From assembly GCA_026985075.1 (NCBI GenBank), contig JALSQX010000011.1:1-64000 (forward strand): 64,000 bases of DNA, given 5' to 3'. The stretch's first letter is position 1, and each line of letters starts with the position of its first letter. Under the pieces are notes generated by a model. It was not told the DNA's origin, made no database searches, and was given only the letters and a program-made list of their open reading frames with translations. Origin of the DNA: Blastocatellia bacterium. Lineage in GTDB: Bacteria > Acidobacteriota > Blastocatellia > HR10 > J050. Positions 8,400 to 28,953 of the stretch are shown here, in pieces. The position numbers and the translations under genes are program-made.

Positions 8400-9467
8400 T
8401 CAGTCGGGGTGATGGGGGAACATCTTCTCTAGGACGCGGTCAAAGCCTTCGGATTGCTCTATATGATACTCCTCTCCATTGTCTCCCTCGCCTACAATGA
8501 GCCCCATCACCTCATCGAGCCGGTTGAGCAAGGCCATGCCGCGTTCAAACCCTAGCACGAAGACGGACGTGGACAGGGCGTCCGATTGGATCGCTCGCGG
8601 CGCAACTATGGTGACGCTGTATATGCCTTGGACCGGTTGCCCCGTCCGGGGATCGAAGATATGCCCATACATTTTGCCGCTGAGACGAAAGAATTTTTCG
8701 TAGCGACCCGATGTGGACACCGACTGGTCTCTCAATCTCAGGACGGCCATCATTTTTTGGGGATGTTTCGGATCTCTGAGGCTCACACTCCAGAAGGTTT
8801 TGCCGGGCGGCGCTCCCAGCGCATAGATGGTGCTCTCGCCAGCGCTGAGGAGAGCGGATGTGATCCCGTACCGTCTGAGTATCTCCACGGCTCGATCGAT
8901 GGCATACCCTTTGGCGATGCCGCCGAGATCGATCTCGACCCCCGGTTTGGCGAAGGAGATCGTTTTTTCCTCCTCGTCCAGGATGAGGAAAGTATAGCCG
9001 ACGCGCGCGCGAACGTGCTCTAGTTCTCGAGCAGTGGGGAAGTGGCCTTCGTGTTTGTAGAATCCCCATAGTTTCAAGAGCGGCGCGACAGTCACATCAA
9101 ACGCTCCCTCCGTCAGTTCAGCATAAGAGATCGACTCCCGAATGATGGCATAGAGTTCATCGCTGGCGTGAAACGGTCGCTTCCATGCTGTGCGATTCAT
9201 TCGACTCAGTTCGCTCTCCGGCTTATAGTTACTCATCTTGGCATCGATCCGGCGAATTTCCTCGAACGCTGCTCGCATCGCCCGCTGTCCTGTCTCCCTG
9301 TCGGGTGTGTAGAGCGTGATCTGGAAAATCGTCCCCATGACGTAGTGCGCTTCGATGAGGGGGCGATCAGTCGCGTGGGCCAACATCCCACCACGCCATA
9401 ATAAGGAGACGAGGAACAATCCCATCATGTTGCCCATCGAGTGAAAATGTCTCCATCGGATATTCAT
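8400..9467 (-). CDS. apbE: FAD:protein FMN transferase ApbE
   Basis: This transfers FMN from FAD to a Thr of exported FMN-binding proteins. I chose ATG 9467 (355 residues) because of the GGAGGAGGT directly upstream; a longer frame reaches 9707. An N-terminal hydrophobic segment (about residues 11-31) exports it. Family motifs are visible: the MGTIFQI start of the domain, NRTAW, GAFDVTVAPLLKLWGF, EIDLGGIAKGYAIDRA, SAGESTIYALG and SDALSTSVFVLG, the last containing the metal-binding Asp/Thr region. It overlaps the preceding membrane-protein gene by 4 bp. Its likely target is the FMN-binding protein encoded two genes upstream. Confidence 0.95.
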   Translation of the reverse strand: MNIRWRHFHSMGNMMGLFLVSLLWRGGMLAHATDRPLIEAHYVMGTIFQITLYTPDRETGQRAMRAAFEEIRRIDAKMSNYKPESELSRMNRTAWKRPFHASDELYAIIRESISYAELTEGAFDVTVAPLLKLWGFYKHEGHFPTARELEHVRARVGYTFLILDEEEKTISFAKPGVEIDLGGIAKGYAIDRAVEILRRYGITSALLSAGESTIYALGAPPGKTFWSVSLRDPKHPQKMMAVLRLRDQSVSTSGRYEKFFRLSGKMYGHIFDPRTGQPVQGIYSVTIVAPRAIQSDALSTSVFVLGFERGMALLNRLDEVMGLIVGEGDNGEEYHIEQSEGFDRVLEKMFPHHPD

Positions 9468-10003
9468 GACCTCCTCCGAATGGTGTTCATGTGAACGCGA
9501 GTCTCTTCCATCTCGGCATTTCTTTTCTTGAACCACATCTCGTGAGTGGGGATGACGATATAGGACATCAAACTGAGCGCGAGGAGAATTTGAGCGACGA
9601 TCATCAGGAGTGCGCATTGGCCCGAGACATAGCGGATGAGCCAGGGCGAAGCGATCTCCAGTATCACCCCCACGAATGAAGCTCCAATGACCATGACTTT
9701 CAGCCATGCGCGAGCTGATGTCATCAAGAGGAGATGCGCCATGATCATAATCACCACGGGCATAGAGAAGATGTGAAAATGTGTCGTTTCGAGCAGAGCC
9801 CGAAGGCTTTGGGGAGCGATGAGCTGTTCTTCAGAGCCTCGATAGTATATGGCGATATCAGCGAGGCGAAATCGGGTGTGTTGATAGAAGATGGCCAGAT
9901 TGACGATGAGCCCGATGAGCATAGTGAAGTTGAAAAAAGTCATGATGATCTTCATGCCCACCGAACTGTTCCGCAGTTGGAATGGACTCCAGAAGGTGCG
10001 CAT
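9464..10003 (-). CDS. His-rich integral membrane protein of flavinylation operon
   Basis: This encodes 179 residues with four to five hydrophobic helices (about 19-40, 78-96, 100-118, 128-152). The conserved-looking stretch YYRGSEEQLIAPQSLRALLE is followed by THFHIFSM (H75, H77) and a helix containing H90, with another His at 154. These could be haem b or metal ligands, but that is inference. I do not know a named family, though I recall similar proteins beside FMN-binding genes in other bacteria. It lies between the FMN-binding protein (7 bp gap) and apbE (4 bp overlap), so it probably passes electrons across the inner membrane to the flavinylated partner. Confidence 0.75.
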   Translation of the reverse strand: MRTFWSPFQLRNSSVGMKIIMTFFNFTMLIGLIVNLAIFYQHTRFRLADIAIYYRGSEEQLIAPQSLRALLETTHFHIFSMPVVIMIMAHLLLMTSARAWLKVMVIGASFVGVILEIASPWLIRYVSGQCALLMIVAQILLALSLMSYIVIPTHEMWFKKRNAEMEETRVHMNTIRRRS

Positions 10004-10010
10004 CTCCGCT

Positions 10011-10598
10011 TCACCTCTTATCAGATGTTTGCGGCGTCAGATAGATAACCTGGATGATGGCCAGCGCTTTGCGAACGCCCACACTGAGCGCTCTGACCGA
10101 GAGCGTTGCGCCGCTGATATTTTTGATGTCTTTATATTGACGAATGGGATCTTTGAGGTTCTTGTTTCGGAATTGCCGCAAGAACCCTCGGTACCGAACT
10201 TCGCTACCATGTGATTCGCGATACATCATAATGGCGACATCCTTCACTGAACCGTCGGGCGTCACACCAACGATGAACGTGATCGGTCGATACTTGCCGA
10301 TCTCTTCACAAATGATGGCGTAACCGATGGTCTCGCCCTTTTGTTTGGCGATGAATGTGATGTAGAAAGGTTCCCATATCGAAGGTTTGGCCCGTCCGAT
10401 CAACCGTTGAGTTTTCTCGCGCAGCGCCGGCGTCGATGGGATCTCCCGCCGTTCAAAAGTGTCCGCTTCGGGGAAGACGGCCTTGGGGGCGTCTTCGACG
10501 GTGAGGAGGACTTGGGCGGAGACGAGAGAACTCATGGAGAGTACCAATCCTGTGAAGGTCATGGCCCGAAGGCAATGTAGGATTCCTTTTCCCACCAT
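10011..10598 (-). CDS. Exported FMN-binding domain protein (ApbE substrate)
   Basis: This encodes 195 residues from ATG 10598, preceded by AAGGAGG. Residues 1-28 form a Sec-type signal ending in VSA-Q. The C-terminal half is an FMN-binding domain of the NqrC/RnfG/NosR type with the flavinylation motif SGAT at 162-165, so T165 should carry FMN through a phosphoester bond. The surrounding DIKNISGATLSVRALSVGVRKAL matches the family. The earlier GYAIICEEIGKYRPITFIVGVTPDGSVKDV is the usual strand pair. In this operon it is the only visible substrate for ApbE, and it is expected to act as a periplasmic one- or two-electron carrier. Confidence 0.9.
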   Translation of the reverse strand: MVGKGILHCLRAMTFTGLVLSMSSLVSAQVLLTVEDAPKAVFPEADTFERREIPSTPALREKTQRLIGRAKPSIWEPFYITFIAKQKGETIGYAIICEEIGKYRPITFIVGVTPDGSVKDVAIMMYRESHGSEVRYRGFLRQFRNKNLKDPIRQYKDIKNISGATLSVRALSVGVRKALAIIQVIYLTPQTSDKR

Positions 10599-10638
10599 AT
10601 TGCCTCCTTGAAGATGAGCATGCGAAGAAACGCTATGG

Positions 10639-12543
10639 TTAGAATCCGAAAGCAATGCCAAAGAGAATCGTATCGAATGAACGATCCGAAAGGCGTCCTA
10701 ATCCCAGTATGTCTGGATAAACGAGCACTCGGCCCTTTCGTCGGTGATTGTGTTCATAAGCCAAGGAGATGGGGATCGATGGTATCGGTCGGTAGGTCAA
10801 TCCAATGGTGAGTCGATCTTGACTGATGTCTTCTAATGTCAGGTTCGTGATGATGCCGTCGGCGAATTTCAGCTCCCGTACCAGATCGTTGAACCACACC
10901 CGCTCGTAGCGCACAATTGGAATTAACTGTGGATCTTCAAATCCCCGGCCGAGGAAGCTCTCGCGCAACCACCGCGGACGCCAGCGATACTTAAAATCGA
11001 TCCAGAATCCATAGCGTTGATTGGTCAAGGGCCCCTTGAACTCAGCTTCCACTTCGGACTCTAATTCCTCTGTTTCTTCGCCCGACGTTTCGGCGCCCAC
11101 ATCGACGAGTTGGCGGGCCAGGTCATCGAGTACCCGCTGCATGCGGCCGTAGTCGGTGTAGATGAACTCGCCCTCAGCTTCTAATGATCCGAGTGTGAGT
11201 TTTCCATCGATGCCAAATGAGTTGATATTCTCGCGAATGCTCAGGTAATCCGGAGTATAGCGGCCGTGATAACCGGAGAAGGCAATTTCGCTCCCGATCC
11301 GAGGACTCACGGCCAGCCGCCAGGTCACCGCATCGGCAGTGTTCGATCCATTGACTGGTCCGGAGTCGAAGAAGATCTCCGGTTCAATTTCTATGAGATT
11401 GCGTCCTTGACGCAAGGACGCGGCGACCTCATTAGTGAAATCGAGAGTCACGCCATTGACGATATATGCTTGGTACTTGAGAAAGCCTCCACTCAGGGGA
11501 ATGGTTCCCAAGATCCCCGCTCCCAATTCGCTCCAGGCCGTCTTGGCTGGAAGCACGGGAGCGTCGCGATCGACTAGGGTACGTCGGGGAATATCCCAAT
11601 AGTCATCGTCATGAAGGAGATTGAATCGCCCGAGGGGGGGGAGAATAATCCCCGCTCGCAGACCAAATTGATCGGGAATGACATCGTATTGGAACCAGGC
11701 TTGCTCGATTTTGATCTCGCTCCCACTTTGTCCCTCGACGCCCTGAACGAACCGCGTTCCACTCCGGTGGCGTTGGCCACGATTCTCCGGAATCGCCGTC
11801 CGTTCAATCTCGATCTTCCCCAATCGCTCGAATTCGATTTCGCTGTGAATGCGGAGCCGGTCGGCAGGCGTGATATCCGTGGTGAGAACGAATCGGCGGA
11901 AGTCGAAGGAGTGGAAACCACGTCGAACCCGTGGGAGCGTGCCGAAAGGTATCCCAAGATCAATGTTATTGGCTTCGAAACGAAGGGAGCCATAACCGCC
12001 GATGTGAACGACATGGCTCGGCAAACCGCGTTGATCCTCGCCTGAGGAGCGCCTGCTATTGCCGGTGAGCCGCTTTTTCACGTCCAACCGATTGGTCGAT
12101 GCTGATCGAACTGCCCGAGGAACCGCTGATGCTCGTCGCGGGGTTTCCAGGGAACCTCGTTGTTCACCCTCAAGGAGCTTTTCAGAAACGCGACTATCTC
12201 TCCGGCTGGTCTCGGTCGAACCCGAAGTCTTGAGGCTGATCTCCGATCGCTCTCGTTTCATCTCGACGATCATTCTTTGCAACAGTTCGACCTGCGCGCG
12301 AAGCCGCTCGATTTCGGCTTTGAGAACCTCGAGGTTGGGAGTGCGGTGTGGGGGTTGTAGCTTGTGAACGATCGGATGTTCATGGAGTGTTTGTTGAGTT
12401 GGCCGACAGGATGGTTTCGTGTTGAACATTCTCTTATCCATGGGTGCGGAAGAGGGGGAAAAACGACGTTGTCCCCAAGCCCGATGGGATGGGTCAAACA
12501 GTATGATTGCTAAAGCGAAGGCGATGAAAAGATGACGGTTCAT
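10639..12543 (-). CDS. Outer-membrane porin with N-terminal coiled coil
   Basis: I take ATG 12543, preceded by AAGGAGGAG, giving 634 residues; the frame is open further upstream but without a binding site. A signal peptide (1-23) is followed by a polar linker and a coiled coil with Leu heptads (LEVLKAEIERLRAQVELLQRMIVEMKRE). A beta-barrel of the phosphate-selective porin O/P kind follows, with alternating hydrophobic strands such as GGYGSLRFEANNIDLG and RRFVLTTDITPADRLRIHSEIEFERLG, ending in the C-terminal Phe of IAFGF. The coiled coil after the signal resembles porins that bind peptidoglycan or trimerise. It is the first gene of the flavinylation operon and may import or export its substrate. 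Confidence 0.8.
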   Translation of the reverse strand: MNRHLFIAFALAIILFDPSHRAWGQRRFSPSSAPMDKRMFNTKPSCRPTQQTLHEHPIVHKLQPPHRTPNLEVLKAEIERLRAQVELLQRMIVEMKRERSEISLKTSGSTETSRRDSRVSEKLLEGEQRGSLETPRRASAVPRAVRSASTNRLDVKKRLTGNSRRSSGEDQRGLPSHVVHIGGYGSLRFEANNIDLGIPFGTLPRVRRGFHSFDFRRFVLTTDITPADRLRIHSEIEFERLGKIEIERTAIPENRGQRHRSGTRFVQGVEGQSGSEIKIEQAWFQYDVIPDQFGLRAGIILPPLGRFNLLHDDDYWDIPRRTLVDRDAPVLPAKTAWSELGAGILGTIPLSGGFLKYQAYIVNGVTLDFTNEVAASLRQGRNLIEIEPEIFFDSGPVNGSNTADAVTWRLAVSPRIGSEIAFSGYHGRYTPDYLSIRENINSFGIDGKLTLGSLEAEGEFIYTDYGRMQRVLDDLARQLVDVGAETSGEETEELESEVEAEFKGPLTNQRYGFWIDFKYRWRPRWLRESFLGRGFEDPQLIPIVRYERVWFNDLVRELKFADGIITNLTLEDISQDRLTIGLTYRPIPSIPISLAYEHNHRRKGRVLVYPDILGLGRLSDRSFDTILFGIAFGF

Positions 12544-13173
12544 GCTGCTCCTCCTTTCCAGGAATTGCCTGAAGAACCGGCGAACCCAAGAGGTTCGCTT
12601 TTCATGGATTCCAGAATGCGACGGTATGGCATTCGAGAGTTTGTGAGACATGTCCCGCGGACGACCGTGATTGACCAGAGATGACAGATACGATCGAGTT
12701 CTCAGCCCACCGGGCCCGATCGGGAACTCCGAGGGCTGCTCCTCGTAGTCTTGGCATATCATGAAATTGAAATCCATTTTCAATTTCGAAACCGAATCAT
12801 ACGCCATAGCGTAGCGACTGTCAAGTACCAGATCAGTGAAAATCTCTGTGAGCTCAATTGATCAGAGAGGGATGCGGACGGCGGGCGGGCGCGTGGTCTC
12901 TCCCGATGGAAATCCTCTCCCTCTCTACGTTCCGGCGGAATGGAAGATGTGCTGGCGCTCGATCACCCGAGAGGAACGAGCAGTGACGACCTTTGGTCAG
13001 GCATCGACGAGTCGGCCCGTATTCCTGCCACACGTCCATCACGAGATGGGACTTCCCCCGGAGTCGCCTCAGCGGGGGTCAGGTGAATGAGAGAAAAGCT
13101 CCTCACTATGCAGAGGGTATTTTCAAGTCTTCCCGTCGTGGGGTCGCACCATATGTGGCCTTATCAGTCCGTC
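12544..13173. other. Intergenic region upstream of porin operon
   Basis: These 630 bases separate the porin start from the end of hemL. They contain the inverted repeat at 12763-12787. A plus-strand frame at 12836-13090 starts with GTG, lacks a ribosome binding site and has no family resemblance, so I do not call it. Nothing else stands out. Confidence 0.5.
12763..12787 (-). promoter_or_regulatory. Fur-like operator palindrome
   Basis: Two perfect 10-base arms, GAAATTGAAA (12763-12772) and TTTCAATTTC (12778-12787), flank TCCAT. Read on the minus strand the core is TTGAAAATGGATTTCAA, close to the TGAAAAT/ATTTTCA half-sites of Fur-family boxes. It lies about 220 bp upstream of the porin start, at a plausible promoter distance for a long leader. 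Identity as a Fur site is inference from the consensus; the palindrome itself is exact. Confidence 0.45.
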
Positions 13174-14460
13174 TTAGAACATCATTCTCAGAACGGCGAG
13201 CTGAGTCTTCACTGTCTTCTCGATGTCCGCCGGCGAGTGCGCGGTTGAGAGGAACATGGCTTCGAATTGGGACGGGGCGATGAAGATCCCCTGATCCAGC
13301 ATGCGATGGAAATACTGGGCATATTTCTCGGTGTCAGCTCTCTTAGCCGTAGCATAATCGACAACTAATGAGAGAGTGAAGAATACAGTCAACATCGAGC
13401 CAATGTGATTGATTCGCAGTGGCCATCCGTGCCGCCGTATGCTCTTTTGGAGTTCATCCACCAGTTGCCTCGTCGTCTCTTCGAGTTGCTGGTAGATCCC
13501 CGGCCGTTTCAACTGGTTGAGCATTTCCAATCCGGCCCGCATGGCTAGCGGGTTTCCCGAGAGCGTTCCCGCCTGATAAACGGGACCGGAGGGAGCTACC
13601 AGTTGCATAATGTCGCGGCGGCCGCCGTAAGCGCCCACTGGCAGACCGCCGCCGATGATTTTTCCCAAGCAGGTGAGGTCAGCATTCACGCCGAAGTACT
13701 CTTGAGCCCCTCCATAGGCCAGTCGAAATCCGGTGATCACTTCGTCGAAGATGAGCAGGACGTTGTGATCCCGAGTCATCTCGCGCACCTCATGCAGATA
13801 TCCGTCGTAAGGCACAACGACGCCCATATTAGCTGGCACCGGTTCCAGGATGACGGCGGCGACATCGCTCTCATACTCCTCCAGAGCCGCTTTCAGGGCT
13901 TGGGTGTTATTGAACGGCACATTGATAGTCAATCCAGCGAATTCGTCGGGGACGCCGGGACTGGAGGCGATGCCCAGGGTCGTCAATCCGGAGCCCGCCT
14001 GGGAGAGGAATCCATCGCCATGACCGTGATAACATCCTTCACATTTGATGATTCTCTTCCGCCCGGTGAAAGCGCGGGCCAGCCGGACGGCGCTCATCGT
14101 CGCCTCAGTGCCGGAATTGACGAAGCGAACCATGTCGACCGATGGGATGGCGGCGACGATCTCGCTGGCCAATTCCACCTCCCATTCGGTCGGCGCGCCG
14201 TAACTCGTTCCCCGTTCGGCTTGTTCTTGGATGGCGCGCACGATGGCCGGATGGGCATGCCCAAGGATGAGAGGCCCATAGGAACACACATAGTCGATAT
14301 ACTCGCGCCCCTCCACGTCGTAGATCTTCGAGCCCGCGGCTCGAGCGACGAAGAACGGATCACCGCCCACGGAGGCGAATGAGCGAACGGGGCTGTTGAC
14401 GCCACCGGGAAGGAGATGTTTCGCTTGCTCCAACAGTTCGTGAGATGTTGGGTTGCTCAT
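13174..14460 (-). CDS. hemL: Glutamate-1-semialdehyde 2,1-aminomutase
   Basis: This is the second committed step of the C5 route: it isomerises glutamate-1-semialdehyde to 5-aminolevulinate using PLP/PMP. I chose ATG 14460 (428 residues) because GAGG lies just upstream; in-frame starts at 14478 and 14487 also exist. Signatures include LLPGGVNSPVRSF at the N-terminus, the cofactor-binding VNSGTEATMSAVRLAR, EPVPANMGVV, FDEVITGFR and the PLP lysine in CLGKIIGGGLPVGAYGG (about K267). The length is normal for the family. It is the last gene of the hemX-A-C-D-B-L array, 14 bp after hemB. Confidence 0.97.
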   Translation of the reverse strand: MSNPTSHELLEQAKHLLPGGVNSPVRSFASVGGDPFFVARAAGSKIYDVEGREYIDYVCSYGPLILGHAHPAIVRAIQEQAERGTSYGAPTEWEVELASEIVAAIPSVDMVRFVNSGTEATMSAVRLARAFTGRKRIIKCEGCYHGHGDGFLSQAGSGLTTLGIASSPGVPDEFAGLTINVPFNNTQALKAALEEYESDVAAVILEPVPANMGVVVPYDGYLHEVREMTRDHNVLLIFDEVITGFRLAYGGAQEYFGVNADLTCLGKIIGGGLPVGAYGGRRDIMQLVAPSGPVYQAGTLSGNPLAMRAGLEMLNQLKRPGIYQQLEETTRQLVDELQKSIRRHGWPLRINHIGSMLTVFFTLSLVVDYATAKRADTEKYAQYFHRMLDQGIFIAPSQFEAMFLSTAHSPADIEKTVKTQLAVLRMMF

Positions 14461-14474
14461 AGTCGTCCTCTTGG

Positions 14475-15452
<978 letters not shown>

Positions 15453-16271
15453 TCACCTCCTGCCAAAGTATGTCACCAGCGCTCGAACGAGCGCCGATCC
15501 CGTCGAGGCCGGCGCTTCGATGTGCACCGTCAATCCCTGTTCGCGGATCGTCTGCGAAGTTCGGGGACCGATGCTGGCGACCAGGAACCGGTGTTTCCAT
15601 CGCTCGATATTGGACGGCCCCACGAGGCGGACGAAATTCTCCACCGTTGATGAGCTGGTGAACACGACAACATCAACAGTCCCTGCTTCCAGCGAGCGAA
15701 GGATTCGGGGCTCTGGTGGATCGCCCATCACGGTTCGATACACAATCACGTCATCGACGCGCGCTCCGCGTCGGCGCAGTCCCTCCGACACAGTATCGCG
15801 CGCCAGATTCCCTCGCGGAAAGAGAATCTTCACCCCATCCAAGCGTCGGGGGAAAGCGGCGAGTACGCCCTCACCCGTGTGCGACTCGGGAACGAGATCG
15901 GCAACCAGTCCTCGAGCAGCGAGAGCCCGGGCCGTAGCTGGACCAATGGCGCACAGATGGAGTCGTGAAGGGGGGCGGTCGAACGAGCATCGGCGGCAAA
16001 AATACTCCACGGCATTGCGGCTGGTGAAGATGATCCAGTCGTATTCGGCCAGTCGCTCGATGGAGCGGTCGATCTCCGTCCACGTCTCGGGTTCGACGAT
16101 CTTGATCGTCGGCATGACGAGCACATGAGCGCCGTGCGTGCGAAGCGCATCGGTGAGTTCGCGCGCCTGCTCGCGTGGCCGAGTGATGAGGATGCAACGG
16201 CCACGGAGGGGCTGACTATTCACTCTGGGAGCCTTTCTGTTGGACATGTCGCTGGGCCTGTCGGTAAGCAT
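15453..16271 (-). CDS. hemD: Uroporphyrinogen-III synthase
   Basis: This cyclises hydroxymethylbilane with inversion of ring D. The family is poorly conserved, but RGRCILITRPREQARELTDAL near the N-terminus, IIFTSRNAVEYF, IGPATARAL, LFPRGNLARD, VDVVVFTSSSTVENF and ASIGPRTSQTIREQG are its recognisable landmarks in the expected order across two Rossmann-like domains. The 272-residue length is normal. The start overlaps the 3' end of hemC by 56 bp at ATG 16271; ATG 16247 is an alternative. Position between hemC and hemB supports the call. Confidence 0.93.
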   Translation of the reverse strand: MLTDRPSDMSNRKAPRVNSQPLRGRCILITRPREQARELTDALRTHGAHVLVMPTIKIVEPETWTEIDRSIERLAEYDWIIFTSRNAVEYFCRRCSFDRPPSRLHLCAIGPATARALAARGLVADLVPESHTGEGVLAAFPRRLDGVKILFPRGNLARDTVSEGLRRRGARVDDVIVYRTVMGDPPEPRILRSLEAGTVDVVVFTSSSTVENFVRLVGPSNIERWKHRFLVASIGPRTSQTIREQGLTVHIEAPASTGSALVRALVTYFGRR

Positions 16272-17181
16272 TCACCTCTTCGAGAATGCGATCGGCGCCT
16301 CGGGCGATCAGTTTCTGGGCGAGACGCACGCCGAGGCGTTCGCTATCGCTCGTCGGTCCGCTCAGACGGTCACGAACGATTTTCTCTCCATCCAACGAGA
16401 TGACACAGGCTTCGAGCCACAGGTCGTTCCCTTCGACGTGTCCCCACGCGCCAATGGGCACCTGACAGCCACCTTGCAATGCGCTCAACAAAGCGCGCTC
16501 GGCCATCACGGCGGCTCTCGTCGGGGGATGATCGATCGATGACAAAAGGGCGAGCAGTTCTCGATCATCGGCGCGAACTTCGACGCCTAGTGCTCCCTGT
16601 CCGACGGCGGGCAGGATCACCTCTGTGGAGAGAACCTGCGTAATGCGATCTGTCCACCCTAAACGATCCAGACCGGCTTTGGCCAGCACGATGGCGTCGT
16701 AAGAGCCCTCGCGAAGTTTTCGCCAGCGGGTATCCACGTTGCCGCGAATGTCAACGAATTCCAGATCAGGACGTCGGTGGCGAAGTTGAGCTTTTCGCCG
16801 CCAGCTACTGGTGCCCACGCGCGAACCTGATGGCAGTGATTCCAACGTCCGACCATCCCGCGAGAGGAGGCAGTCGCGTACGTCGTGACGGGCGCAGATG
16901 GCGCCCATGGTGAGCCCCGTCGGCATGTCCGTGGGGACGTCCTTCATGCTGTGTACGGCCATGTCAATGCGGCCCTCCAGCAGTGCTCGCTCGATCTCTT
17001 TGACGAAGACGCCCTTGCTGAGCGTGGCGATAGCCGCATCGAGAAATCTGTCGCCCGTCGTCTTGATCGTCATGATCTCAATCGGCATTTCCGTGAAGGC
17101 GGCGAGGTGCTGGCGAACGAAACGCGCCTGCCAGAGGGCGAGTTGGCTCCCGCGACTTCCGATGATGAGTTTCTCTCTCAT
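16216..17181 (-). CDS. hemC: Hydroxymethylbilane synthase (porphobilinogen deaminase)
   Basis: This polymerises four porphobilinogens into hydroxymethylbilane on a covalent dipyrromethane cofactor. C239 in LLSALQGGCQVPIGAW is the cofactor-attachment cysteine. Other family marks are IGSRGSQLALWQA, DMAVHSMKDVP with the catalytic Asp, GTSSWRRKAQL and RGNVDTRWRKL. The 321-residue length is standard. The start overlaps the end of hemA by 4 bp, indicating translational coupling, and the 3' end overlaps hemD. Confidence 0.97.
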   Translation of the reverse strand: MREKLIIGSRGSQLALWQARFVRQHLAAFTEMPIEIMTIKTTGDRFLDAAIATLSKGVFVKEIERALLEGRIDMAVHSMKDVPTDMPTGLTMGAICARHDVRDCLLSRDGRTLESLPSGSRVGTSSWRRKAQLRHRRPDLEFVDIRGNVDTRWRKLREGSYDAIVLAKAGLDRLGWTDRITQVLSTEVILPAVGQGALGVEVRADDRELLALLSSIDHPPTRAAVMAERALLSALQGGCQVPIGAWGHVEGNDLWLEACVISLDGEKIVRDRLSGPTSDSERLGVRLAQKLIARGADRILEEVNAYRQAQRHVQQKGSQSE

Positions 17182-18437
17182 TCCTCGTCGTTCAAATCGA
17201 ACAAGTATCGAATGCTCTCCAGATGCCGTTTATCGGCCGATTGTTTGAGTCGGACGGTCGGCTCGTGCAAAATCTTGTTGACGATGGCCAGGGTGAGAGC
17301 CGTGATGATATTCCGCTGACGATCCGAGAGCGGGCCCAGCTTTCTCAAATGAGCCTCCAGTTCCGACTGGCGAATTCGTTCCGCTTTGAATCGCAGGCTC
17401 TTGATGGTCGACACGGCCGAGAGGCTCTCTTGCCAGCGCATGAACTTCTGGACCTCCTCTTCAATGATTCGCTCCGCTTTGGGAATGTCCTTCTCTCGCT
17501 CTTGCCGGTTCTGAGCCGCGATGCTCTGGAGATCGTCCAGATTATACAAAAACACGTTGTAAACGCGCTCGGCATCGGGGTCGATATTGCGAGGCAATCC
17601 CAGGTCGATGAGGAACAGAGGCCGGTGATTTCGTTCGCTCATCATGTGTTCGATCACATCGTGTCGGATGATGTACTGATCGGTTTGGATCGAGGTGATG
17701 ACAATGTCCTGTGTTTTCAAACTGGCCATGAACTGCTCCCAGGGGAGGGCTCGCCCGCCCACCTGTTTGGCGAGAGCGGTGGCGCGATCGAACGATCGAT
17801 TAGTGACGGTAATATGTCTGGCGCCGCGCATGGCCAGGCCGCGCGCGGTGAGCTGACTCATCTGGCCGGCACCCACGACGAGGACCGAGCGATCGCCAAG
17901 CTCGCCGAAGATCTTGGTGGCCAGCTCCACGGCGACGGCGCTCACCGATGTCGGTCTCAATCCGATCTCGGTCTCGCTCCGAATCCGCTTGCCCACTTGC
18001 GCTGCCTTTTGAAACAGGTGATTGAGGATGAGCCCCGTCGTCCGACACTCCAGGGCCAGAGAGAAGGCCTGGCGAACTTGGCCCAGAATGTGCGGCTCGC
18101 CCAATACCATCGAGTCGAGGCTGGCGGCGACGCGAAACAGATGTCGCACGGCGTCGGCTTCCAGGTAATGGTAGAAAGCGCCATTGAGTCGTTGCGGATC
18201 AACGCGGTGGAATTGACAGACGAAAGACTGCACCGCCGCAATGGCTTTTCGTTCCAGAGCGCTCACGCCATAGACTTCGCTGCGATTACAGGTCGAGACG
18301 ATCACCGCTTCTTCCAGCACTCCTTCCCGAGTGAGTTGCTGGATGGCTTCTCTGGCCTGGGCGGGCGCAAACGCCACGTGCTCCCGGAGTTCGATGGGAG
18401 CGGTTCGGTGATTCAGTCCGACGACCAGCAGCGACAT
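17178..18437 (-). CDS. hemA: Glutamyl-tRNA reductase
   Basis: This is the NADPH-dependent first step of the C5 route, reducing glutamyl-tRNA to glutamate-1-semialdehyde. The 419 residues show the N-terminal GLNHRTAPIELRE, the catalytic cysteine C50 in STCNRSEVYG, EPHILGQVRQAF, and the NADPH site VVGAGQMSQLTARGL. The C-terminal dimerisation helices extend to the end. The enzyme feeds the rest of the array and is usually the control point for haem supply. It begins 18 bp after the hemX-like gene. Confidence 0.97.
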   Translation of the reverse strand: MSLLVVGLNHRTAPIELREHVAFAPAQAREAIQQLTREGVLEEAVIVSTCNRSEVYGVSALERKAIAAVQSFVCQFHRVDPQRLNGAFYHYLEADAVRHLFRVAASLDSMVLGEPHILGQVRQAFSLALECRTTGLILNHLFQKAAQVGKRIRSETEIGLRPTSVSAVAVELATKIFGELGDRSVLVVGAGQMSQLTARGLAMRGARHITVTNRSFDRATALAKQVGGRALPWEQFMASLKTQDIVITSIQTDQYIIRHDVIEHMMSERNHRPLFLIDLGLPRNIDPDAERVYNVFLYNLDDLQSIAAQNRQEREKDIPKAERIIEEEVQKFMRWQESLSAVSTIKSLRFKAERIRQSELEAHLRKLGPLSDRQRNIITALTLAIVNKILHEPTVRLKQSADKRHLESIRYLFDLNDEE

Positions 18438-18455
18438 CGTTGATACTATCCTCGA

Positions 18456-19277
18456 TCAAAAATAGGCGTGCAATCGCGAGAAAAAGAGGTTCACCATCGT
18501 GTAACTGAACAACACCACCAGAAAGCCCCCCACGGCTACCCACGCCGATCGCTGACCACGCCATCCACGGCGTTTTTGCAAGATGATGTAGAGCGCGTAA
18601 ATGACCAGCACGAGCAGAGACCAGGTGATCTTGGCATCCCATCGGTGCGAAGCGTGACTCCAGGCTCGTCGGGCCCATGCCACACCGGTCAGAATGCCCG
18701 CACTCAATGCGCCCACGCCGAGAATGACGCTGGTCAGGTTAACCCGTTCCAGAAGATCGAGCGAGGGCAAGAGCGAGGACCATCGTCCCGGCCGATGGGT
18801 CCGCAGTCGCCAGTGTTGGATCAAATACGCGACGCTGGCGATGAACGAGATGGCGAAGGCCGCATAGGCCAGGACGCTGATATTCACGTGAAGGGCGAAC
18901 AGCCATCCTTTCACCCAAGGGTCGATCTCAGTGGGCACTCTCTGAAACAGAGCGAACGCCGCTTGAAGAACGATGACGATGGGCAGCAGAAAAATACTCA
19001 TGGACTTCTGCCGAAGGTAGAGTTCCAGCCCGAGATAAATCAACCCCAGATCCCAAGCGAACAAGGAGATGGACCCATAGAGATCGCCGTAGGGAACGGA
19101 TCCGATGAGTGCAGCGCGTCGCATGAGGGCGATGAAATGGATGACGAGTCCCAGGGCGAGAAATCCAGTGGCCATTCGACCTAGATGAGGCTTCCGGAGG
19201 GTGAGAAATCCCACGTAGCCACTACCGCTCACCAGATAACAGAGCACAGACATCCAATTGAAGACCGTCGCGCTCAT
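18456..19277 (-). CDS. hemX: CcsA/HemX-like cytochrome c assembly family membrane protein
   Basis: This encodes about 273 residues from the internal ATG near 19277; a GTG 22 codons upstream is possible but the added residues are polar and unlikely. Eight hydrophobic helices are visible. The C-terminal half has the CcsA-family arrangement, with a His in the loop and helix regions and SHRWDAKITWSLLVLVIYALYI in place of the canonical WDPKE/W-rich segment. The gene neighbours hemA exactly as hemX does in Bacillus-type hemAXCDBL operons, where the protein influences glutamyl-tRNA reductase level. Whether this copy aids cytochrome c haem delivery or HemA control cannot be told from sequence alone. 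Confidence 0.8.
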   Translation of the reverse strand: MSATVFNWMSVLCYLVSGSGYVGFLTLRKPHLGRMATGFLALGLVIHFIALMRRAALIGSVPYGDLYGSISLFAWDLGLIYLGLELYLRQKSMSIFLLPIVIVLQAAFALFQRVPTEIDPWVKGWLFALHVNISVLAYAAFAISFIASVAYLIQHWRLRTHRPGRWSSLLPSLDLLERVNLTSVILGVGALSAGILTGVAWARRAWSHASHRWDAKITWSLLVLVIYALYIILQKRRGWRGQRSAWVAVGGFLVVLFSYTMVNLFFSRLHAYF

Positions 19278-19419
19278 GACTGCCCATTCAGGGAATCTCT
19301 TCCCCGCCTCCTGGGGATGGCGTTGTCTATCGCCCTCCTCCACCAGTTGTTCATCGCTCTCAGTTTCCTGAAGCTCTTCGGTGTGCTATCATCACCTTTT
19401 AAAGGAGCCATTATAACAG

Positions 19420-25827: not shown

Positions 25828-28812
25828 CTAGAAACGCAATCGGAAGGCGAACTGGATCTCTCGAGGATTGAATACATCTCGTGGCGTCCCAAAGCCGAGG
25901 AAGGGTGGTGGCGGCGTGTTCAGATCGGCCGAGCCCCAGACGGTGCTGAAATTCTTGATGTTCACCGTGTTGAAGAGATTGAAGACCTCGGCGATGAACT
26001 CTCCTTTCCATCGCTCGCCGAAGGCGAAAGAGCGGGAGACGCGCAGGCTGAGGTCGGAGAATCCATCGCCTTTGAACGTGTTCTTACCCAGTTGGCCGGG
26101 GCGATCGGCGAGGGGATTACCATCCTGATTGGCATCGACGCCAGCGAACACGGTGAAGAATCGCGCGCTCTGAAGCGTTGTGATGACGCCGAGCTTGAAA
26201 TGGCGCAGGAGGCCATGGAGCCGATCCCGAGGACCCTCTCCCAGAAAGGTGAGGACGAATCGTTGTCCCACGTGTTGATTGGAGAGCGCACGTTCCAGAT
26301 TGGCGTTGTTGGGATCATTGGCCCACATCGCCAGATCGAGTCCCCACCCGGCGGGATCGCGAAGAGAAATCGTTTTGGAGATGGTATAGCTGGCATTGAG
26401 ACTGAAGTGATGATTGAATCGTTTGTTCAAGGAGAAGGTTCCTCCGTGGTAGTTCGAACGATCATCATTGCGGACGACGAGAACAGCCAGATAATGGGGA
26501 TCTCTTCGACCGGCCAGAAGGGGGCGTCCATCGGGAGTCGTTCCCGTCTGGATGGCGTTGATATTCGTCCCTGCCGCGGGCAGCTTGAGACCATGCACAA
26601 ATAGATAATGTGCCGAGATGGCCACATCTCCGGCTAACTGATAAGAAATGCCCAGACTGGCCTGCTCACTGTACGGGCTCCGAAGCGTCCGTTCATTAGT
26701 AATATTGAAGATGAGACCCTGCGCGTTGGGGGGGAGCTGGCCCGTGGTCATGAGCTTGAAGAATGCCGGCGCGGCTACTGGCGGTCCGGCCAGGGAGTAG
26801 AGGGCGATGTGGCTCAGTCGCCGATTGAAGGGACCGAGATCCATCAGCGGAGAGGATCGTCCCCATCCGATCACCGTGAATCCATGGAACCAGTGTGCCG
26901 GAACGCGCTTCAGATCGTGAAACAGCCCGAATCCGCCACGGATGACGCCGCGCCCCCGAGCGAACGCGTAGGCCCAGCCCAGGCGTGGCTGGACATTATT
27001 GTAGTCTCGATCGGCGACGAAGGTCGGCAGCGTGTCAAAATCGTAACGGACGCCATAATTGAGGGTGAAATGGGGCGTCAGGCGCCATCGATCCTGAATG
27101 AAGAATCCCCAACTCTCGTAGTCGTAGCGAATGCCGGTTAACTCCTCCCAGGGAGCGGGCACCGCGCGATCCCAGGTCGTGCTGAATCCGGGATGAACGT
27201 CCACATCGACGGCTGATGGCCACTGCATGAAGACCGGCGTGATGCCGGGAAATGGCGGCAGTCCGAGGAAACCGGGCAGACCGGCGAAGATGATGCGGGC
27301 GGGGAAGAAGAGCTGCCACCGGGACGTATCTTGATAATGATTGATGTTGAAGCCGAATTTCACCTCATGGCCGCCGCGCGTATGGCTCGTCTGATCGATG
27401 CCTTGCCAGAGGCTCTCCCGGTAAAAATCGAAATCCGACGTGCTCTTTCCCATCACAATGAGATTGGGAATCTCCAGGGCCGGCTCGTGCAGAATGGAAG
27501 GAAAGGCGAAAGATCGTCGCCCGTATTGAAAGCGGACTTCATTGACCCAGGTGGGAGAGATCACGGAGACGACATTGACGACCAGCACCTGATCGCGCAC
27601 GAAGGCATTCCGCCGCGTCGACGAAGCGGGCGATGCGCGACCGCCGCCGCCGAGGAAGTTGTGGGTATCCGAATCGATGAAGTTATATCGGAGCATCGCC
27701 CGATTTTTGGCAGTGAGCGCGTGATCGGTCCTGATGAGGAACTCATCATAATTGTTGGTTCGCGTGAGCGTATCCACTTCCGGCTGGAGTCCGAATTGAG
27801 CCCGAATGCGGTTGATGGCGGCCAGATTCCGCAGGAGGACTTCCGAGAAATTGTTCCCTTCGGCGCGCCGTTGTCCTTCATAATTGCCGAAGAAGGTGTG
27901 CTCTCCCGAGGCGATGGGACCGCCCAGCGTGAATCCGAATTGATGTTGTCGCAGCACCTTCGATTCCGGCCGTTGCAGGATCGACCGCGCGTTCAGTGCA
28001 TCGTTCATGCCAAAGTAGTAGACGGTGCCATGGTACTCATCGGTGCCCGATCGAGTGACGATATTGACCAATCCGGCCAGGAATCGACCGTGTTCGGCCG
28101 CATACGTGCTGTTCAAGATGCGAAATTCTTTGACCGCTTCTTGAGAGGGCGTCGCTCGGGGCAGGCCAGTGATCGTTTGTGAATTGTCCACGCCGTCGAT
28201 TTGAATGAGCGTCAAGCGCTCGTTCTGTCCACCGAATGTCAATCGGGGAGCTGCCGCCGGTCCCACGGCCACCGTCGGTTCCTGGAAAGCGCCACCGGTC
28301 AGGTTGCCGCGGGCGGGCGCGACCTGACTGGACAGTTTGACGAAATCCACGAAGTTTCGACCGATGATCGGCAGATCATCAATCTCGCGCTCATCGATCA
28401 CGCGACTCACCTCGGCTTTGGTGAATTCCAGCAATGGGGCCGCGGCGGTGACGAGGACTTCTTCGGTGATCTCGCCAACCTTGAGGGTGACGTCGACGAC
28501 GACCTCTCCACCCACGGCGAGCGTGAGCCCGCGCTGCACGGCGCGCTGGAATCCCTCGTGCTCCACGCGAAGCTCATATTGGCCGGGAGCCAGCGTCGAG
28601 AAGCGAAAGCGCCCCTGAGGGTCCGTCACGATGGTTCGCTCTTGACCCGTCTCTTCGTTCTTCAATGTGACGACGGCGCCAGGGATGGCGGCTCCGCGCT
28701 CATCGACGACGGTACCCATCACCGAACCCGATTGAGCCCTCACCGGCTGGCCACCGAGCACAAGGAACCATAGTCCCACCATACTCACGATCACGCCACT
28801 CTGTCTGGACAT
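25828..28812 (-). CDS. Oar-like TonB-dependent receptor with carboxypeptidase-regulatory domain
   Basis: This encodes 994 residues from ATG 28812. The signal peptide (1-26) ends at VRAQ. A carboxypeptidase-regulatory-like domain follows (SVMGTVVDERGAAIPGAVVTLKN… to about residue 115), then a plug domain with LPIIGRNFVDFVKLSSQVAP and QIDGVDNSQTITGLPRATPSQEAVKEF, and a large beta-barrel that ends in REIQFAFRLRF. This is the Oar/SusC-like architecture multiplied in Acidobacteriota. The ligand is unknown. No binding-protein gene, riboswitch or Fur-like site is visible nearby. It diverges from the acyltransferase gene across 141 bp. Confidence 0.9.
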   Translation of the reverse strand: MSRQSGVIVSMVGLWFLVLGGQPVRAQSGSVMGTVVDERGAAIPGAVVTLKNEETGQERTIVTDPQGRFRFSTLAPGQYELRVEHEGFQRAVQRGLTLAVGGEVVVDVTLKVGEITEEVLVTAAAPLLEFTKAEVSRVIDEREIDDLPIIGRNFVDFVKLSSQVAPARGNLTGGAFQEPTVAVGPAAAPRLTFGGQNERLTLIQIDGVDNSQTITGLPRATPSQEAVKEFRILNSTYAAEHGRFLAGLVNIVTRSGTDEYHGTVYYFGMNDALNARSILQRPESKVLRQHQFGFTLGGPIASGEHTFFGNYEGQRRAEGNNFSEVLLRNLAAINRIRAQFGLQPEVDTLTRTNNYDEFLIRTDHALTAKNRAMLRYNFIDSDTHNFLGGGGRASPASSTRRNAFVRDQVLVVNVVSVISPTWVNEVRFQYGRRSFAFPSILHEPALEIPNLIVMGKSTSDFDFYRESLWQGIDQTSHTRGGHEVKFGFNINHYQDTSRWQLFFPARIIFAGLPGFLGLPPFPGITPVFMQWPSAVDVDVHPGFSTTWDRAVPAPWEELTGIRYDYESWGFFIQDRWRLTPHFTLNYGVRYDFDTLPTFVADRDYNNVQPRLGWAYAFARGRGVIRGGFGLFHDLKRVPAHWFHGFTVIGWGRSSPLMDLGPFNRRLSHIALYSLAGPPVAAPAFFKLMTTGQLPPNAQGLIFNITNERTLRSPYSEQASLGISYQLAGDVAISAHYLFVHGLKLPAAGTNINAIQTGTTPDGRPLLAGRRDPHYLAVLVVRNDDRSNYHGGTFSLNKRFNHHFSLNASYTISKTISLRDPAGWGLDLAMWANDPNNANLERALSNQHVGQRFVLTFLGEGPRDRLHGLLRHFKLGVITTLQSARFFTVFAGVDANQDGNPLADRPGQLGKNTFKGDGFSDLSLRVSRSFAFGERWKGEFIAEVFNLFNTVNIKNFSTVWGSADLNTPPPPFLGFGTPRDVFNPREIQFAFRLRF

Positions 28813-28953
28813 GACGCGTCCCTCCTCAGCTCGAGCTGTGCTGTTCCCACGACAACATCTCCGAAATAGCGCCACCAATTTTGAAGCCCTGGTGGTTGAA
28901 TTGCAAGGGGGATCTCTCTAAAATGTGCTTTCGCAGGGGAGCACGCACGGACG

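Follow-up and report, generated by a model that had tools for sequence, protein, structure and literature searches.

A four-gene operon encoding an FMN-binding protein, ApbE, a porin-like protein and an unnamed membrane protein as a candidate flavin-based periplasmic ferric reductase in Acidobacteria and 'Candidatus Dadabacteria'

The stretch analyzed in the current work (referred to as the window) comprises 64,000 nucleotides (nt) from a Blastocatellia bacterium (positions 1 to 64,000 of contig JALSQX010000011.1, assembly GCA_026985075.1), and contains on its minus strand a collinear set of four genes specifying a porin-like protein, an exported flavin mononucleotide (FMN)-binding protein, a membrane protein without named family (named MP4) and the FMN transferase ApbE. 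The first gene (10639..12543, its start at 12543 being presumed) encodes an exported barrel protein of 634 amino acids (aa) with an N-terminal coiled-coil-like stretch. It is followed after 40 nt by the FMN-binding protein gene (10011..10598; 195 aa) and after a further 7 nt by the MP4 gene (9464..10003; 179 aa), which shares a 4-nt ATGA overlap with the ApbE gene (8400..9467; 355 aa). The overlaps and short gaps noted in a first-pass annotation of this DNA were thereby confirmed, and its range of 9464-12543 was found to omit ApbE. The recurrence of the set in two phyla indicates that the arrangement is more than chance and, together with the Pfam matches given below, supports the proposal that ApbE and FMN_bind belong to an operon complete in itself, which also includes a conserved porin and membrane protein.

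Pfam searches with the window proteins assigned the FMN_bind domain (7e-9) and ApbE (7e-85). Provided that the ATG at 10598 is the start of the FMN gene, the SGAT flavin-attachment motif (10104..10115, minus strand) carries the predicted acceptor residue at T165, as had been claimed, and this residue is invariant in 20/20 aligned FMN proteins, all of which match Pfam FMN_bind at E<=0.1. Across 31 loci the strict [S/T]GA[S/T] motif was present in 26 and SGST in four, the remaining one (L060) having neither while keeping its T in the alignment. The solved structures closest to the profile of the FMN-protein family are RnfG subunits (1.2e-11), and rnfG models matched the window protein below their cut-off (33 versus 102 bits). 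A search of the genome returned a single FMN_bind match and a single ApbE match, both within the operon; since there is no second FMN_bind gene, no NqrC/RnfG-type partner was found, in line with the absence of an Nqr/Rnf partner noted in the first pass. Of the ApbE substrate types FMN_bind, DUF2271 and DUF3570, this search covered the first. By eye, the FMN protein has the N-terminus of an exported protein; judged by sequence, an exported FMN_bind protein bearing the motif and an encoded ApbE are both present, as expected of an ApbE-flavinylated extracytosolic system. In two relatives (L025:9444-10121 and L026:9125-9685) the FMN protein has an apparent twin-arginine signal peptide (by eye), unlike that of the window.

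The synteny search with MP4 as query, which the first pass had proposed, retrieved the four-gene set again in Acidobacteria and in 'Candidatus Dadabacteria'. A scan of public genomes yielded three loci, these being the Acidobacteria isolate J050 (MP4 91%) and two 'Candidatus Dadabacteria' loci, of which L005 holds porin, FMN protein, ApbE and MP4 together and L006 is available as a stretch ending before the porin. Profile searches, which covered the two phyla and drew mostly on draft genomes, placed MP4 in 14/396 genomes of the phylum of the window (23/396 with a broader profile that includes the haem-type members described below) and in 41/57 genomes of Dadabacteria. The resulting collection of 46 MP4 loci consists of 23 from the phylum of the window, one from a further genome of the same genus, 20 of the 39 further Dadabacterial ones, and L005 and L006. 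Neighbours were counted within 4.5 kb of MP4 and, for FMN_bind, also on the MP4 strand. By this measure FMN_bind accompanies MP4 at 31/46 loci (hereafter flavin-type), of which 30 also have the porin and 22 ApbE; among these, the porin lies on the opposite strand in L035 and L098, and ApbE does so in seven cases.

MP4 has no Pfam or NCBIfam match, which agrees with the earlier description of a membrane protein without named family, and 24 members tested against a list of 8 Pfam and 7 NCBIfam families, including PepSY, MsrQ and DUF4405, gave no match at E<=0.1. Weak Pfam matches seen in one or two members (DUF4212 at 1e-4, chlorophyll a-b binding and GtrA) were judged to be due to chance, and searches of plasmids with five MP4 variants produced no match. 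The three histidines highlighted in the first pass (H75, H77 and H90) are indeed present, with the HxH codons 75-77 at 9781-9773. H77 is kept in 44/44 aligned members, H75 in 31/31 flavin-type, 4/11 haem-type and 2/2 other members, and H90 in 29/31, 0/11 and 0/2, respectively. M81 is kept in 28/31 flavin-type sequences, and the HxHxxxM motif and H90 are located on one helix.

The presence of a flavin partner and of a built-in c-type haem site appear to be exclusive. A CxxCH motif lies within MP4 at 12/46 loci (haem-type), where FMN protein, porin and ApbE are absent within 4.5 kb by the models used; three of the 46 loci (L030, L031 and the fragment L069) have neither FMN partner nor c-haem, and none combines the two. 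This mutual exclusion points to a role of MP4 in electron transfer. The c-haem insert comes after window residue 64 in 11/11 aligned haem-type members, where it separates the first from the second transmembrane segment (TM1 and TM2), and because c-haem attachment takes place outside the cytosol, the TM1-TM2 loop is placed in the periplasm. A tree of 44 rows unites the flavin-type members in a single group (98/91), with the haem-type members on the other side of a 90/84 branch. Two state changes suffice, which indicates one flavin/haem exchange and not repeated ones; several branches are long and the deep joins are therefore unsure, and 7/12 haem-type loci come from one genus code with weak matches (E 4e-5 to 5e-4). 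By path length, the Dadabacterial L005 and L006 come closest to the window after its same-genus relative, and neither phylum is recovered as a single group, a pattern suggestive of transfer between the phyla.

Several of the loci outside the flavin type have neighbours of their own. At L034:155-2260 a haem-type MP4 stands beside a 434-aa exported protein without Pfam family, whose one CxxCH is near to, and not exactly, the Cyc2 motif. The haem-type loci L029:5432-5839 and L032:1350-1790 have as a common neighbour a protein of 135-146 aa in which a Cys-rich stretch is conserved and for which no significant Pfam family was obtained with the copy from L029, and at L099:4321-5003 (G291) the haem-type MP4 gene is broken by a stop codon. 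MP4 lies downstream of an RND-pump-like gene (by eye) at L030:2229-7697, and at L031:174-4000 upstream of both a 193-aa exported protein (no SGAT, no Pfam family) and a metal P-type-ATPase-like gene (by eye).

The label 'porin' depends on relatives, which gave weak Pfam matches at E<=0.1 (IAT_beta in 9/18, BBP2 in 8/18 and Porin_O_P in 3/18), and the window protein itself gave none, significant or weak. No CxxCH was found in any of 30 porins, nor was a flavinylation motif conserved among them, as one has a single strict motif and two have SGST, with no common position. The idea that the porin itself is flavinylated was dismissed because no motif for it is conserved, and its AlphaFold model, built with 3 sequences, had a predicted local distance difference test (pLDDT) score of 28.5 and was left unused.

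The region in front of the operon provides a putative link to iron. A sigma-70-type promoter TTGACA-17-TATGAT (12796..12824, minus strand) has 11/12 consensus bases and is kept in L004; because 3 promoter-like sites were present in the region against 3.2 expected, its weight lies in its position. Directly behind it, at 12787-12763 (12763..12787, minus strand), is a putative operator consisting of a perfect 10-base inverted repeat, GAAATTGAAA-ATGGA-TTTCAATTTC, which is also kept in L004. Fur-like sites were scored around the porin open reading frame (ORF) starts using the 19-base Escherichia coli Fur consensus. After exclusion of the window itself and of two porins located at the ends of contigs, 27 porin upstreams were usable, of which 10 had a site of at least 15/19 and 14 a site of at least 14/19, as compared to 0/312 and 2/312 upstreams of other ORFs at the same loci. 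The ten higher-scoring ones represent four tree branches, three of them being L005, L026 and L098 and the fourth a Dadabacterial clade with seven rows. In front of the 12 haem-type MP4 genes the score did not exceed 11. A second palindrome, ATTATGGATAT-N3-ATATCCATAAT (for example at L053:4185 and L060:4453), precedes the porin in some Dadabacteria that have no good Fur-like site, and also occurs at 3/312 control upstreams.

The iron permease FTR1 connects to the operon in two ways. When the Fur-like site of L065 was used as a pattern (<=3 mismatches), one match was obtained in the 5.2-Mb genome. It lies 9 nt in front of an FTR1-FtrD-YHS gene, as counted from its presumed start, and this site is identical to the window operator at 18/21 bases. 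That score was reached by 0/1000 dinucleotide shuffles of the 300-base upstream stretch (best 15), and matches to the FTR1 site elsewhere in the 64-kb window did not exceed 15. The 25-bp operator of the window does not recur as a motif in the genome, where it had one match at <=3 mismatches; looser matches lay in genes or in arrays resembling clustered regularly interspaced short palindromic repeats (CRISPR). A pattern built from the window and FTR1 sites gives exact matches by construction and was not used as evidence. In addition, FTR1 adjoins the operon in 7/31 flavin-type loci: in L051-L055 it is oriented divergently to the porin, and in L064 and L068 it follows the operon on the same strand; no FTR1 was found near the 12 haem-type loci in the stretches examined, and in the genome of the window FTR1 is located away from the operon. 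Pfam analysis of the L053 FTR1 copy, the sole one scanned, also revealed a cytochrome c domain. The FTR1 permease gene of the genome (L121:71-1492; G000:C5) also encodes FtrD-like and YHS domains. At L113 and L114 (G000:C4, approximately 87.5 and 95.2 kb) the translation consists of repeated units suggestive of CRISPR arrays, the repeat of which contains ATTGAAAC.

Based on the gene set, the motifs, the conserved neighbourhood, the exclusivity of flavin and c-haem, the Fur-like sites, the operator shared with FTR1, the FTR1 neighbours and the presence of three FUR-family genes in the genome, we consider it probable (roughly 60%) that the operon encodes a flavin-based ferric reductase of the periplasm, which is induced by iron starvation and receives its electrons from MP4. 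The path inferred from these sequence features, from electron donor, haem or quinone and direction of flow to flavinylation, porin substrate and iron as the acceptor, would run as follows. In the inner membrane, MP4 would be reduced by quinol, perhaps via a b-haem at the HxH site, and, with the invariant H77 near the periplasmic end of TM2, would hand the electrons to the exported FMN protein at the periplasmic face. ApbE would attach FMN to T165 outside the cytosol, and the reduced FMN protein would in turn reduce ferric iron or ferric chelates entering through the dedicated porin. The iron would then be taken up by FTR1, as may be the case in these genomes, or by another permease. The suggestion of ferric reduction made in the first pass thereby gains evidence from regulation (Fur-like sites and operator) and from neighbourhood (FTR1).

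A number of observations weigh against a ferric reductase fed by MP4. The ten Fur-like positives fall in four branches, so that a Fisher p of 1.7e-12 overstates their independence, and 17/27 porin upstreams remain below 15/19. The site in front of the window's porin gene scores 13/19 to the E. coli-type consensus, a value equalled by 7/200 mononucleotide shuffles, and the same-genus locus L036 scored 11, where the tested stretch misses the operator because the longest ORF starts upstream. The FTR1 site falls within the ORF when this is taken at its greatest possible length, MLESLV being a presumed start, and the adjacency of FTR1 to the operon is seen in Dadabacteria only, in two clades. A different member of the FUR family may act as the regulator, 9/31 flavin-type loci lack ApbE within 4.5 kb, the AlphaFold model of MP4 (4 sequences) is of a quality too low (pLDDT 61) for placing a haem or quinone, and a PDB fold search with this model gave no match at E<=0.001.

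MP4 may alternatively be a channel for iron or another metal, in which the helix carrying HxHxxxM and H90 passes Fe(II) made by an FMN protein that obtains its electrons from elsewhere. The retention of H75, H77, M81 and H90 in flavin-type members, the iron-type regulation and the location of two MP4 members near metal-efflux-like genes (by eye) would be accommodated by such a channel; we nevertheless regard it as unlikely, as the built-in c-haem of 12 members fits electron transfer and not a channel, the operon holds no other membrane donor, and a known permease family, FTR1, adjoins 7/31 loci. The presence of a porin in 30/31 flavin-type loci raises the alternative that the barrel is a docking site for the FMN protein, from which electrons would reach acceptors outside the cell (extracellular respiration), as in a Cyc2 working backwards, and the L034 haem-type MP4 next to an exported CxxCH protein resembling Cyc2 near its haem motif would agree with it. 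Such an outer-membrane conduit is less favoured because CxxCH is found in 0/30 porins and no flavin motif is conserved in them, a result that also removes support from the electron passage across the outer membrane envisaged in the first pass; moreover, Fur-like control suits assimilation better than respiration, and this explanation therefore appears improbable.

The flavin-dependent periplasmic reductase could also act on a substrate other than iron, such as in oxidative-stress repair or on a small electron acceptor, under PerR- or Zur-like control by a FUR-family regulator. The genome encodes three FUR-family genes, and no reductase domain names the substrate, both of which leave room for such a function. 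The operator held in common with the FTR1 iron permease and the FTR1 neighbours speak for iron instead, and we judge another substrate very unlikely.

Two further features of the window lie outside the operon. Directly upstream, a tetrapyrrole-synthesis-like gene run (13174-19343, minus strand) encodes a class-III aminotransferase (Pfam) and ALAD- and uroporphyrinogen-synthase-like proteins (by eye), and the promoter-like site of the operon lies behind this run. The other, at 25828-28878 (minus strand), encodes a large barrel protein of the outer membrane whose N-terminal domain is carboxypeptidase-regulatory-like.

Among known systems, RnfG and NqrC share the FMN_bind domain, whereas the FMN protein described here is exported and stand-alone. 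DUF3570 proteins are barrels. In a survey of flavinylation (PMC8238504) DUF3570 is an ApbE substrate of approximately 420 aa with two [S/T]GA[S/T] sites, whereas the porin of the operon has none conserved. The same survey describes NapH-, MsrQ-, PepSY-like, DsbD and Nqr/Rnf-like donors, the interchange of flavin and cytochrome, Fur control of some PepSY clusters, and a proposed role in iron assimilation for PepSY-like/DUF2271/ApbE clusters. These clusters resemble the operon in having an inner-membrane carrier, an exported flavinylated protein and ApbE, and sometimes include a TonB receptor; they differ in that MP4 has no PepSY match, FMN_bind replaces DUF2271, and a dedicated porin is present here (PMC8238504). 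Its P19/FTR1 clusters likewise contain an FMN-binding gene in an FTR1 iron-uptake setting, while the core here is formed by porin, FMN protein and MP4, and FTR1, the one of the two that was looked for here, is a neighbour in 7/31 loci. DUF4405 and FezC, added in a second paper (PMC11334425), are small membrane proteins with conserved His tied to flavinylation or ferrosomes, FezC being proposed to bind haem as a homodimer; MP4 differs in having its conserved His on one helix and, in one branch, a c-haem insert. Cyc2 (PMC8406198), a cytochrome-porin fusion, similarly combines one redox centre with an OprO/P-like barrel, unlike the present system of separate proteins, in which flavin stands in for haem and the barrel is without CxxCH. 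The word 'porin' is absent from the main texts of PMC8238504 and PMC11334425, and no published description of the four-gene set was found in the open-access literature, though it may sit unnamed in the supplementary tables of the surveys.

The flavinylation surveys consulted name five uncharacterized classes of membrane donor, to which DUF4405 was later added. Because none of the surveyed families is matched by MP4 in the 24 members scanned, the operon would add a new variant to the systems of flavinylated extracytosolic electron transfer, distinguished by a membrane partner without a name and a dedicated porin. At about even odds, MP4 is the founding member of a new family of small electron donors in the inner membrane, built on one conserved HxH helix. 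Some of these would supply electrons to a separate flavinylated carrier that comes with a porin and iron control, and others would bear their own c-haem on a periplasmic loop, the flavin form then being a porin-coupled reductive iron uptake that is not among the named flavinylation systems. The exchange of a partner flavoprotein for a built-in c-haem constitutes a natural experiment on the interchange of flavins and cytochromes and, if the link to iron is true, the operon would provide a testable iron route for the Dadabacterial phylum and for scattered Acidobacteria.

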